Shown here one piece after another: positions 12,871-22,161 of a stretch of 36,065 bases of DNA. Positions within the stretch are counted from its first letter, which is position 1, and every line of letters begins with the position of its first letter. The stretch is taken from the NCBI GenBank assembly GCA_000155715.1, contig DS990615.1, positions 3,068 to 39,132 on the forward strand, written 5' to 3'. The DNA is from a gamma proteobacterium HTCC5015 (GTDB lineage Bacteria > Pseudomonadota > Gammaproteobacteria > HTCC5015). Made by a program: the position numbers and the translations under genes. The notes below the pieces were generated by a model. That model saw only the letters and a list, made by a program, of their open reading frames with translations. It did not search any database and was not told the origin of the DNA.

Positions 12871-14055
12871 ATGGGGGCGGCAGTGGCAGACGATCTAGAT
12901 CGACTGATTTCTCACGAACAGGTGCGAATGCTCTATCGCAGGGGATTGATCTCCTTTGCGCTGGAAGTACTGACGGTGGCATTTGTTGCTCTATGGTTTT
13001 CCGACTATCTACCGCTCGGGGAGTTTGGCATTTGGTGGCTGGCGCTACTCGTTGTGTCTTCTTTCGATCTCTTTTGCCACAGTGTCTTCCGCGCCAAGCA
13101 GCCCGCCGAGCCTGGCCGCGGTTTGTGGTATCCCGTTTACCTAACATGCTGCGCCATTTTTAGCGTGGTCTGGTCTGTGGCTACCATTGAAATGATGTCT
13201 ATACTGCCCGCCCAAGGCAATTACGCGTGTTTGCTGGTTTTGGCGGCTGTGGCGGGCGTCGGCGTGTCCGAGGTTGGAGTGCGGCGCTCCTCCGCCGCAG
13301 TCTATCTGCTGGGTTTGTTTGCGCCGGTCAGTGCATGGTTGCTCTGGCGCGGTGTGGCCAACGATACCGGGGCGGCATGGTTTCTGATGGGTTACGGTGT
13401 GGCATTGTGGATTGGCAGTGCGCGCCTAGCAGAAAATATTCGCTCGTCTTTGCGCCTGCAATTTGAAAACCAAGAGCTAGCGGGCTCTTTGAAGCGCAGC
13501 AACAACCGCCTGCAAGAGGCCAACCAAGAGTTGAAACATGCTTCGTCGACAGACTCACTGACTCAAGTGGCCAATCGCCGATATTTTGAGCACCACCTAG
13601 AGGGCGAGTGGCAGCGCTTAGCACGGGAGGAGGGCGACCTGTCGGTGTTAATGGTCGATGTGGATCAGTTTAAGCATTTTAATGATGTTCAAGGGCATCA
13701 AGCGGGCGACCAAGCTTTGGTTGCCGTGGCGGGAGCCTTGCAGAGTGCTTTGCGACGCCCTGCGGACATACTCGCTCGCTATGGTGGTGAGGAGTTTATT
13801 GTTTTGCTGCCCAACACCTCGCGCAGTGGGGCAATGCGCGTTGCCCAGATCATGCGCGAGCGGGTCGAGTTGTTAGAGCTAGAGCACCCTGAGTTAGACG
13901 ACCGTCAGCACGTGACGGTCAGTGTCGGTGGTGCACACGCGATGGTGAAAGAGAGCGCTACCAGCCGAGGCCTCATTGCCGAGGCCGATAAGGCGCTATA
14001 TCAAGCCAAGAAAAATGGCCGCAATTGTGTAGAGATGGCCAGCTCGCCGGATTAG
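12871..14055 (+). CDS. Membrane-bound diguanylate cyclase (GGDEF domain)
   Basis: 394 residues from ATG 12871 (GTG 12883 also possible). About six hydrophobic segments between residues 25 and 185 form an unassigned MASE-like sensor. A short coiled linker (about 200-222) and a complete GGDEF domain follow. The active-site motif is GGEEF at 305-309, and an inhibitory-site RPAD lies at 296-299, exactly five residues upstream, so an active enzyme with c-di-GMP feedback is expected. It makes c-di-GMP from two GTP; the input signal is unknown. Its TAG stop is completed by the first base of the 265-bp mobile element that follows. Confidence 0.92.
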   Translation: MGAAVADDLDRLISHEQVRMLYRRGLISFALEVLTVAFVALWFSDYLPLGEFGIWWLALLVVSSFDLFCHSVFRAKQPAEPGRGLWYPVYLTCCAIFSVVWSVATIEMMSILPAQGNYACLLVLAAVAGVGVSEVGVRRSSAAVYLLGLFAPVSAWLLWRGVANDTGAAWFLMGYGVALWIGSARLAENIRSSLRLQFENQELAGSLKRSNNRLQEANQELKHASSTDSLTQVANRRYFEHHLEGEWQRLAREEGDLSVLMVDVDQFKHFNDVQGHQAGDQALVAVAGALQSALRRPADILARYGGEEFIVLLPNTSRSGAMRVAQIMRERVELLELEHPELDDRQHVTVSVGGAHAMVKESATSRGLIAEADKALYQAKKNGRNCVEMASSPD

Positions 14056-14319
14056 GGCCTGTTAACACAAATTTTATGATCTCTGCTGGAAGCCATTTTT
14101 CTGCCCAGCAAGGCAGAAGGCGTGCCGTGTAGTTCGTCTACACAAACAACTGATAACGCAGCTGGGCGGAAAATAGCTCCAGCCCTTCGGGTTGTGGCTA
14201 AAAAAGCGCCACTCATCGTTGCTCGTCGCTCACTTGGATTCACCAAACCACGCTCCTTGCGCCTTGATTGGCGCTTTTTTAGTCACAACAGTGACCATCA
14301 AATTTGTGTTAACAGGCCC
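14055..14319 (+). mobile_element. 265-bp MITE-like element, copy 1
   Basis: Non-coding element bounded by perfect 20-bp terminal inverted repeats (GGGCCTGTTAACACAAATTT) and flanked by TA on both sides (14053-14054, 14320-14321). An inverted second copy at 21100-21364 differs at only five positions by my alignment. A TA duplication fits IS630/Tc1-mariner or some IS5-group elements; no transposase is present. Internally, 14-nt arms (14198-14211 and 14269-14282) carry GCGCC/GGCGC with A- and T-runs, like a bidirectional terminator. It separates two convergent genes and supplies the third base of both stop codons. Confidence 0.9.
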
Positions 14320-15128
14320 TAGAACCAACCTGTCGCCTTACCCAGCATGCGGGTGCCCGCGACCAGCAAAAATAGCGCCAAACACTTCTTAAGAACAGGA
14401 ATGGGCAGGCGATGTGCCAGTTTGGCGCCGACGGGCGCCATCAGTATGGCGGTTGTGGCGATACCCAAAAAAGCGGGCAGATAGATATAACCGAGGCTGT
14501 ATTGGGGCAGCGCTTCCAAATCTAGGCCCGTGAGTGCCAAAGTGATGGCGCCCGCCACAGCAATGGGTAGGCCGCAGGCCGACGATGTGGCAACGGCTTC
14601 GCGCATATTGACATTGCACCAGTGTAAAAAAGGCACAGTGAGTGAACCGCCGCCAATACCCAGCATGGCCGAGATGGCGCCAATGATCGAGCCGGCAACG
14701 CTCATGCCTAGTGAGGCTGGAAGTTGTCGGTGGGGTTTGGGTTGCGCGCCGAGCAGCATTTTTAAGCCGACCGCCCAACAGCCCACTGAGAAAAACAGGC
14801 GCAGCCACAGCTCGGGCATGGCGTCGACGATAAACCCACCGAGTACAGTGCCTGCGATTATGCCGGGGAGTAGTTGCCAAAACAGTGGCCAGCGCAAGGC
14901 CCCCGAGCGGTGGTGGGCGCGAGCTGAGGACAGTGAGGTGGGGATGATGATGGCCAACGAAGTGGCCACGGCAATTTTAATTGCGTAGTCCACGGCGAGG
15001 CCCTGCGCGTGCAGAATCGCCACGATAATCGGAACAATAATTAAACCGCCGCCCACGCCGAGTAGCCCCGCCACTGTGCCCGAGAAAACGCCGGTCAATA
15101 AAAAGGCAAAAATCGTGCTGGCGCTCAT
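14319..15128 (-). CDS. TauE/SafE family anion permease
   Basis: 269 residues, about eight membrane segments in two homologous halves. Each half begins with a glycine-rich motif, GVGGGLIIVPI near residue 24 and GIGGGSLTVPFL near 155, typical of TauE/SafE (DUF81) proteins. Family members export sulfite, sulfoacetate or related organic anions; the substrate here cannot be told. Its ATG overlaps the stop of the upstream phosphodiesterase gene (ATGA), so the two are translationally coupled. Its stop TAG straddles the edge of the 265-bp element. Confidence 0.9.
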   Translation of the reverse strand: MSASTIFAFLLTGVFSGTVAGLLGVGGGLIIVPIIVAILHAQGLAVDYAIKIAVATSLAIIIPTSLSSARAHHRSGALRWPLFWQLLPGIIAGTVLGGFIVDAMPELWLRLFFSVGCWAVGLKMLLGAQPKPHRQLPASLGMSVAGSIIGAISAMLGIGGGSLTVPFLHWCNVNMREAVATSSACGLPIAVAGAITLALTGLDLEALPQYSLGYIYLPAFLGIATTAILMAPVGAKLAHRLPIPVLKKCLALFLLVAGTRMLGKATGWF

Positions 15129-15984: not shown

Positions 15985-16461
15985 TTGAGTCGACGTTCAC
16001 ACTACATAACGCGAGAGGGCTTTGATCGCCTAGAGAAAGAGCTTAACTTCTTGTGGAAAGAGGAGCGCCCACGCGTGACTCAAGCGGTGTCTGAAGCTGC
16101 CGCGTTGGGTGATCGCTCTGAAAATGCCGAGTATATTTACGGCAAGAAGCGGTTGCGCGAAATCGATCGTCGCGTACGCTTTTTGAGCAAGCGTCTCGAC
16201 GAGTTGCAAGTGGTATATCCATCGCCACAGCAGGCGGGCAAGGTGTTTTTTGGCGCCTGGGTGGAATTGGAAGATGGCGACAGCGGAGAAGTGGTTAAAT
16301 ATCGCATCGTCGGCCCCGACGAATTTGACCCAGAGGTGGGGGCGATTAGCGTTGACTCTCCCGTGGCGCGCGCTCTTTTGGGCAAGGCACTGAATCAAAC
16401 CGTGCGGGTTGAAACTCCCAAGGGATCGCGCCATTTTATTGTGCTTGATGTGAGTTATTAG
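15985..16461 (+). CDS. greB: Transcription elongation factor GreB
   Basis: 158 residues, standard for GreB. It stimulates transcript cleavage by backtracked RNA polymerase. The N-terminal coiled coil contains YITREGFDRLEKELNFLWKEERP and the acidic tip GDRSENAEYIYGKKRLREIDRR. The C-terminal FKBP-like domain begins near VFFGAWVELED and includes SPVARALLGK. The start is TTG 15985 because the frame is closed 8 codons upstream and no ATG or GTG lies between. It diverges from the phosphodiesterase. The stop TAG is built at the edge of a degenerate element copy. Confidence 0.95.
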   Translation: MSRRSHYITREGFDRLEKELNFLWKEERPRVTQAVSEAAALGDRSENAEYIYGKKRLREIDRRVRFLSKRLDELQVVYPSPQQAGKVFFGAWVELEDGDSGEVVKYRIVGPDEFDPEVGAISVDSPVARALLGKALNQTVRVETPKGSRHFIVLDVSY

Positions 16462-16590
16462 GGCCTGTTCACACTCATTCCGCAGCCCCTGCTGGAGTCA
16501 TTTTTTTGTCCAGTAGTTCCAACCGGTGCACAGTGTAGTGGTTCTACATAAGCAGCGTTCGAAGGGTTTTGTAGCTGTTCTGAAGACATA
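16461..16590 (+). mobile_element. Degenerate relative of the 265-bp element, one end only
   Basis: Starts TA|GGGCCTGTT immediately at the greB stop. It keeps recognisable pieces of the intact copies: CTGCTGGA..TCATTTTT near 16490 and the GTGTAG-N5-CTACA hairpin near 16534. No right terminal repeat could be found before the terminator, so it is either a decayed remnant or a diverged subfamily. Confidence 0.65.
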
Positions 16591-21099: not shown

Positions 21100-21364
21100 G
21101 GGCCTGTTAACACAAATTTGATGGTCACTGTTGTGACTAAAAAAGCGCCAATCAAGGCGCAAGGAGCGTGGTTTGGTGAATCCAAATGAGCGACGAGCAA
21201 CGATGAGTGGCGCTTTTTTAGCCACAACCCGAAGGGCTGGAGCTATTTTCCGCCCAGCTGCGTTATCCGTTGTTTGTGTAGATGTACTACACGGCACTCC
21301 TTCTGCCTTGCTGGGCAGAAAAATGGCTTCCAGCAGAGATCATAAAATTTGTGTTAACAGGCCC
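21100..21364 (-). mobile_element. 265-bp MITE-like element, copy 2 (inverted relative to copy 1)
   Basis: Same length, same 20-bp terminal repeats and TA flanks (21098-21099, 21365-21366) as copy 1. Only five substitutions separate the two, two of them in the loop of a conserved hairpin. The right end abuts trpC so that its stop TAG is formed from the flanking TA plus the first base of the element. No coding capacity for a transposase. Confidence 0.9.
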
Positions 21365-22161
21365 TAGTAAAACAGTGCTTTGAGCGCCGCGCCGGGATCG
21401 TCGGCGCGCATAAAGGCCTCGCCGACTAAAAAGGCGTGGACGTGGTTGCTACGCATGGTGTCCACATCTTCTCGGCTGTGAATGCCGCTTTCAGTGACGA
21501 GCACGGTGTCGACAGGCACTTGTTCTATAAGATCGAGAGTGGTGTTTAAACTGACTTCAAAGTTGCGCAGATTGCGGTTGTTGACACCGATCAGGCGGGC
21601 GTCGAGTAGAATCGCGCGCTCCATTTCCGCTGCGTTGTGCACCTCCACCAACACATCCATCTCAAGTGATTGCGCGAGCTGATAGAGGGCTTTGAGGCGT
21701 TGGTCGTCCAGTGCCGAGGCAATCAGCAGCACGCAGTCGGCGCCCATGGCGCGGGCTTCAACGACTTGATACTCGTCGATCAAGAAATCCTTGCGAATGA
21801 CGGGTAGCAGGCAGGCCGAGCGGGCGCGCTGGAGATACACTTCTGAGCCTTGAAAAAAATCTTCATCGGTCAGCACGGAGAGACAGGCCGCCCCATTGGC
21901 CTCGTAACTTTGGGCGATGGCCACGGGGTCAAACGGGTCGCGCAACAGCCCCTTAGACGGCGAGGCCTTTTTGATCTCCGCGATCACCGCGGGGTCGCCG
22001 GCGGCTATGCGCTCTTGCATGGCGTTGATAAAACCGCGTACTGGCGATGCGGAGGCGGCGAGGCTTTCAAGATCCTGAATGGATTGCGCCAATTGACGCT
22101 CGGCGATTTCTTCGGATTTTCGCTGCAGAATTTTCTGCAAAATGTCGGCTGGCTGGCTCAT
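21364..22161 (-). CDS. trpC: Indole-3-glycerol phosphate synthase
   Basis: 265 residues from ATG 22161 ([19 protein letters not shown]) with AAGGAC just upstream. The frame is open 28 codons further but that part overlaps the trpD end. Closes the indole ring from CdRP in tryptophan synthesis. TIM-barrel motifs: [10 protein letters not shown] (catalytic Lys), [39 protein letters not shown]. Monofunctional, no TrpF domain. Last gene of trpEGDC, 28 nt after trpD; its stop codon touches the mobile element. Confidence 0.97.

Follow-up and report, generated by a model that had tools for sequence, protein, structure and literature searches.

A family of short, structured MITEs of near 265 bp, with ends GGGCCTGTTCACACTNATT, a 2-bp TA duplication and a Y-TA-R target, lies in native stop codons more often than matched unoccupied sites would predict, and some of its copies occupy a TA shared by the stop codons of two convergent genes. 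We consider it probable that these are non-autonomous IS5/IS427-type elements which survive best at protein-neutral sites. A transposase acting in trans would recognise the GGGCCTGTT ends and insert the element at Y-TA-R, with duplication of TA. Because both element ends begin with G, landing in a TAA or TAG stop would rebuild TAG on either strand, and where the TA is common to two convergent stops both proteins would remain unaltered. Survivors would then pile up at the 3' ends of genes, above all in stop codons, because insertions within genes and in promoter regions are lost. Selection for such protein-neutral landing is the simplest reading of the stop-codon enrichment.

The window, meaning the whole 36,065-nt stretch of DNA that was analysed, carries one of these elements at the junction of two convergent genes (Table 1), where the letters read ...GAT TA/GGGCCTGTTAACAC ... 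GTGTTAACAGGCCC/TA GAACC, with slashes marking the boundaries of the element. Its terminal inverted repeats extend over 36 nt (89%) with perfect ends of 15 bp, and near-full copies at 96-100% identity number about 45 in the 2.6-Mb genome, in agreement with an earlier note on this DNA that had called the element MITE-like; it is short, non-coding, multi-copy and bounded by terminal inverted repeats. That note had also described a 265-bp element flanked by TA, in which each TA and the adjoining G complete the TAG stop of a neighboring gene, and the two open reading frames do end at these positions. Joining the flanks in silico with a single TA gives GATTAGAACC, where the plus strand has TAG and the minus strand TTC TAA, exactly as had been proposed; compared with the present site, the TauE stop was altered from TAA to TAG by the insertion. 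Both genes are complete by Pfam, with the GGDEF domain at residues 226-385 of 394 and with TauE profile positions 2-237 of 237 covering residues 10-261 of 269, and alignments to TauE homologues elsewhere reach approximately residue 261 of 269. Given the joined flanks and the complete genes, neither protein was therefore changed by the insertion, and the proposal that the convergent genes previously overlapped by their stops, with both proteins unaltered, is upheld. The more general statement of the earlier note, that an element starting with G always regenerates TAG wherever it lands at a TA in a stop, needs to be narrowed: TAG is rebuilt in TAA and TAG stops, but the target is YTAR and not any TA. 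As a side observation, all three family traces in the window adjoin stop codons.

Table 1. Features of the window around the MITE insertion and at two further traces of the family
Feature	Position	Strand	Evidence or remark
Diguanylate cyclase (GGDEF) gene, ending in left TA + G	12871..14055	+	PF00990, 1.7e-49
Left TA of the 2-bp target duplication	14053..14054	.	With the element's first G, forms the GGDEF gene stop TAG; read from sequence
Structured non-coding MITE, 265 bp	14055..14319	+	No ORF of >=80 aa inside; ~45 genomic copies; family alignment
Left terminal inverted repeat GGGCCTGTTAACACAAATTT and imperfect extension	14055..14088	+	
First internal hairpin arm	14085..14184	+	Conserved by covariation (helices 2-4)
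Second internal hairpin arm	14191..14289	+	Helices 6-8
Right terminal inverted repeat	14286..14319	-	
Right TA of the duplication	14320..14321	.	On the minus strand, TA + G forms the TauE gene stop TAG; read from sequence
TauE/SafE sulfite exporter gene, ending in right TA + G	14319..15128	-	PF01925, 1.6e-52
Decayed older family end (GGGCCTGTTCACACTCATTC)	16459..16480	+	Abuts the stop TAG of a GreA/GreB gene (15985-16461, complete)
Second full copy	21100..21364	-	Occupies the stop of the indole-3-glycerol phosphate synthase gene at 21364-22161 (minus)

Target preference is evident among the 39 copies in the window's genome that have TA on both sides. Of these, 37 are at YTAR, which in the surrounding DNA accounts for 24% of TA sites, and 17 are at CTAG, which accounts there for 5%; the flanks of almost all copies in this genome read Y-TA on the left and TA-R on the right. 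Many copies read CTA/.../TAA, and the duplication is therefore TA only, with Y and R belonging to the target, which rules out a 4-bp YTAR duplication. An empty site is available for the Acidovorax copy located between folK and a TetR gene at their shared stops: in G409, a relative with 83% identity, the alignment runs through the joined flanks uninterrupted by an insert, and the same two genes meet there at their stops. In G382, a further relative, each of the two contigs stops at the junction, as expected if a copy breaks the assembly.

Genes were called with a simple home-made three-periodic Markov caller after the elements had been cut out of the sequences; this caller is a weakness of the analysis, although occupied and unoccupied YTAR sites were classified by identical calls. 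Sites within predicted genes were left out and the comparison was tetramer-matched. The background for the window's genome was 372 kb of stretches around copies, and stop copies were counted where the joined flanks contained a native TAR. One truncation mimicking a stop (L067, CTAT) was left out of the counts. The window's genome has 37 copies at permissible YTAR sites. Native stops hold 15 of them, where 8.2 would be expected (P = 0.009), and double stops, in which the TA is common to two convergent stops, hold three, against an expected 0.006. Independent genomes gave 17 of 43 copies in stops against 4.25 expected (P < 1e-4), two of them double, and a third set, partly overlapping the 43-copy set, gave 12 of 18 against 1.75 expected. 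Pooled without duplicates, 38 of 87 intact copies are in stops compared with 252 of 2038 (12%) unoccupied permissible YTAR sites, and stratification by genome and tetramer yields an odds ratio of 4.55 for stops versus all other permissible sites (P = 6e-11). Tabulation of the copies against random expectation, suggested in the earlier note, thus returns an excess at stop codons and not an absence of enrichment. Double stops account for six of the 87 copies and five of the 2038 unoccupied sites, an approximately 30-fold difference (Fisher P = 1.6e-6). The gene pairs are GGDEF/TauE in the window, DEAD helicase/EamA (L032) and Nmad3/unknown (L066) elsewhere in its genome, GntR/AMP-ligase in Alcanivorax (L159), PabB-type/hydroxylase in Gilvimarinus (L270), and FolK/TetR in Acidovorax (L284). 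Nearly all stop-site genes tested have recognisable and mostly complete Pfam domains, including those of cysS-, truA-, dinB-, cutA-, folK-, and pabB-type genes.

The ratio of occupied to unoccupied sites falls steadily away from stops, from 0.151 (38/252) at the stop itself to 0.058 (14/242) at 0-30 nt downstream, 0.042 (13/309) at 31-100 nt, 0.037 (9/246) at 101-200 nt, and 0.013 beyond 200 nt; it is 0.013 (8/610) in divergent regions and ~0.001 (about 0.1%) in gene interiors. Loss of the insertions that hit genes or promoters would be expected to leave such a gradient. Stops are also favored over the sites immediately downstream, by an odds ratio of 2.2-2.5 in the pooled, stratified data (P = 0.026 for 0-30 nt, P = 0.0014 for 0-100 nt), while in the window's genome alone the difference from 0-100 nt downstream is not significant (odds ratio 1.97, P = 0.10). 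Purifying selection alone offers no obvious reason why a stop should be occupied more often than a site 10 nt downstream, and this counts against the explanation that we prefer. An extended target motif behind the stop preference was rejected, since only YTAR with a preference for C/G is clear.

A single structure fits an alignment of 18 diverged elements, in which the paired terminal repeats form a stem bearing two hairpin arms. Changes on both sides were found in 66 of 95 pairs, standard pairs make up 93.2% of pair cells, and the covariation score is 0.466, where shuffled columns score 0.157 and slid structures no more than 0.10; the window element itself folds better than every shuffle (z = -10.6). 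Strong covariation between distant species argues for a functional fold, which may be kept for transposition or for tolerance at the 3' ends of genes. The second arm, with its conserved loop GTTGCTCGTCG..TTTGG..CCAAA..CTCCTCGCGC, has few one-sided G-U changes. Such rarity would be expected where complementarity matters on both strands, be it in a DNA hairpin or in RNA made from one strand or the other, and equally where one arm is copied from its partner. The internal parts of betaproteobacterial elements are too divergent for a good alignment, and those that were folded give the same two-armed shape. A search of Rfam returned no matching family. Shortened derivatives either lack one hairpin (168-175 bp) or contain little beyond the ends (46-95 bp), and TA flanks are mostly kept in such copies (L036:4019-4186, L054:4965-5132, L055:9358-9405, L275, L279, L245, and L253), suggesting that the hairpins may be dispensable for transposition.

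The fold could instead be what retains copies at gene ends, if the hairpins stop transcripts that arrive from either side and so insulate convergent genes. In the window's genome the second-arm stem carries A6/T6 and a terminator-like match, seen as GCGCCTTGATTGGCGC-TTTTTT in the window copy; 24 of the 87 copies lie between convergent genes, the enrichment of double stops points in the same direction, and the SPRITE repeats of pneumococcus provide a precedent (PMC3049150). In the window's genome, with T6 at the end of the second arm, a terminator role is possible. Against a mobile terminator as the general explanation, which we hold to be doubtful, a hairpin followed by a T-run is not a family trait, as the T6 belongs to the window's genome and GC-rich species have no conserved T-run. 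Stop insertions are also found 2-23 nt upstream of the starts of tandem genes (L280, L297, L055, L056, and L043), and these argue against a strong terminator everywhere because one placed there would be polar.

An unlikely but broader proposal is a trans-class family specialised for stops, whose insertion is steered to or favored at stop codons, overlapping convergent ones included, and whose fold has a host function at 3' ends, making it a mobile 3'-end module and not a tolerated parasite. Targeting in the narrow sense, in which sites where translation or transcription terminates attract the transposition complex and stops are preferred before selection acts, would accommodate the excess of stops over the sites just downstream in the face of no clear motif beyond YTAR. 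We nevertheless judge it improbable, as divergent and distant sites are also occupied, selection accounts for most of the gradient, and we know of no IS5-family mechanism that targets termination sites. Chance, by which stops are hit through arithmetic alone since YTAR contains TAR (in the compact genome of the window, stops make up 20-25% of the permissible sites of the CTAG and mixed YTAR kinds), can be dismissed almost entirely in view of the replicated excess over tetramer- and genome-matched expectation.

For the non-autonomous IS5/IS427-type element that we prefer, a candidate autonomous partner is found in the gammaproteobacterial genome G118, which contains an intact 802-bp IS5-family element (L209:718-1519) with the MITE's ends and target. 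Its boundaries read CTA/GGGCCTGTTCACAC...GTGTGAACAGGCCC/TAG and it encodes a 251-aa transposase with DUF4096 (PF13340, 1e-14) and DDE_Tnp_1 (PF01609, 9.7e-13) domains; additional copies in G118 have YTA and TAR flanks and a TA duplication. A Sessilibacter genome holds a decayed relative of this IS with similar ends together with ~28 MITE copies. An IS5-type transposase would thus be the enzyme that moves the MITE, and the identical ends and target place the family, as judged from sequence, within a putative IS5/IS427-type, with the IS427 grouping fitting by duplication and length. Members of the IS427 group have ends of 13-21 bp and mostly 2-bp duplications (PMC3281130). They are ~800 bp long and carry DUF4096 and DDE_Tnp_1, and the partner IS is alike at 802 bp with its TA duplication, whereas the interior of the MITE is not a shortened IS and has its own core, a conserved two-armed fold and a near-constant length in three classes. 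Two further findings count against our explanation: none of the four parent IS copies examined is in a stop, and a search of the window's genome for a transposase with these ends found none. Because no such IS5-type or IS630-type transposase is present in that genome, the window's copies were presumably moved by a partner since lost, missing from the assembly, or too divergent to detect. The genome's own PF01609 transposases were rejected as partners since their ends differ, and an IS630/Tc1 origin, with which the TA duplication is shared, was rejected since the genome has no match to DDE_3 (PF13358) and the partner is a PF01609, IS5-type element.

Among the systems described in the open-access papers searched, the BOX and SPRITE repeats of pneumococcus are the nearest parallel. 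The SPRITE, BOX, and RUP repeats of Streptococcus pneumoniae are short, structured, and mobile and are enriched where genes converge; BOX provides the stop codon of some genes and SPRITE is terminator-like (PMC3049150). The MITE resembles them in being short, structured, mobile, and enriched at convergent genes but is unrelated in sequence and host, and insertion into a native stop with TA duplication is not among the features that the available part of that description gives for them (PMC3049150). MITEAba12, a MITE of the bacterium Acinetobacter, is mobilised by a resident IS that has the same ends, just as ends are shared with the partner IS here. It differs from the window's MITE in length (113 bp), duplication (9 bp), the absence of a target motif, a weak fold, and insertions that disrupt genes (PMC6382973). 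The open-access papers searched, for the end sequence and for a stop-codon preference in bacterial MITEs, yielded no earlier report. An element whose ends begin with G and whose target is Y-TA-R can land in TAA or TAG, even in two stops at once, without protein change, and its survivors are concentrated there; what began as an anecdote becomes a measurable rule and a concrete model of the persistence of small mobile elements where genes are dense. Mobile DNA would thereby settle in packed genomes almost without harm, in a system suited to the experimental separation of selection from targeting.

A scan with TAGGGCCTGTTCACACTNATT of one genome per species returned at least 119 stretches, with Beta-, Gamma-, and Zetaproteobacteria among the matches listed; carriers among them include Acidovorax, Thiobacillus, Alcanivorax, Gilvimarinus, Sessilibacter, Mariprofundus, and others. 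Paired ends are mostly spaced 263-268 bp apart and some longer elements exist. Runs of N and contig ends fall inside element copies (L062, L064, and G000:C13:1-246), and the true copy number is probably higher than that counted. Plasmid and phage collections held only two weakly related plasmid copies, with no annotation beneath them, the Variovorax one lying outside stops. The IncP-type plasmid NC_017858.1 of Methylophaga frappieri (L387), typed as conjugative, carries a fragment of a related element, and a conjugative plasmid is a possible route between lineages. In two loci of G024 (L071 and L073) the same internal core is found with other, IS1031-like ends (GAGCCTATCCGTAAATAA) and other flanks, where the core seems to have exchanged its transposon ends. 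Gilvimarinus copies (L263-L273) measure 265, 313, and 361 bp, in 48-bp steps, as though they had grown by successive additions of an internal unit.
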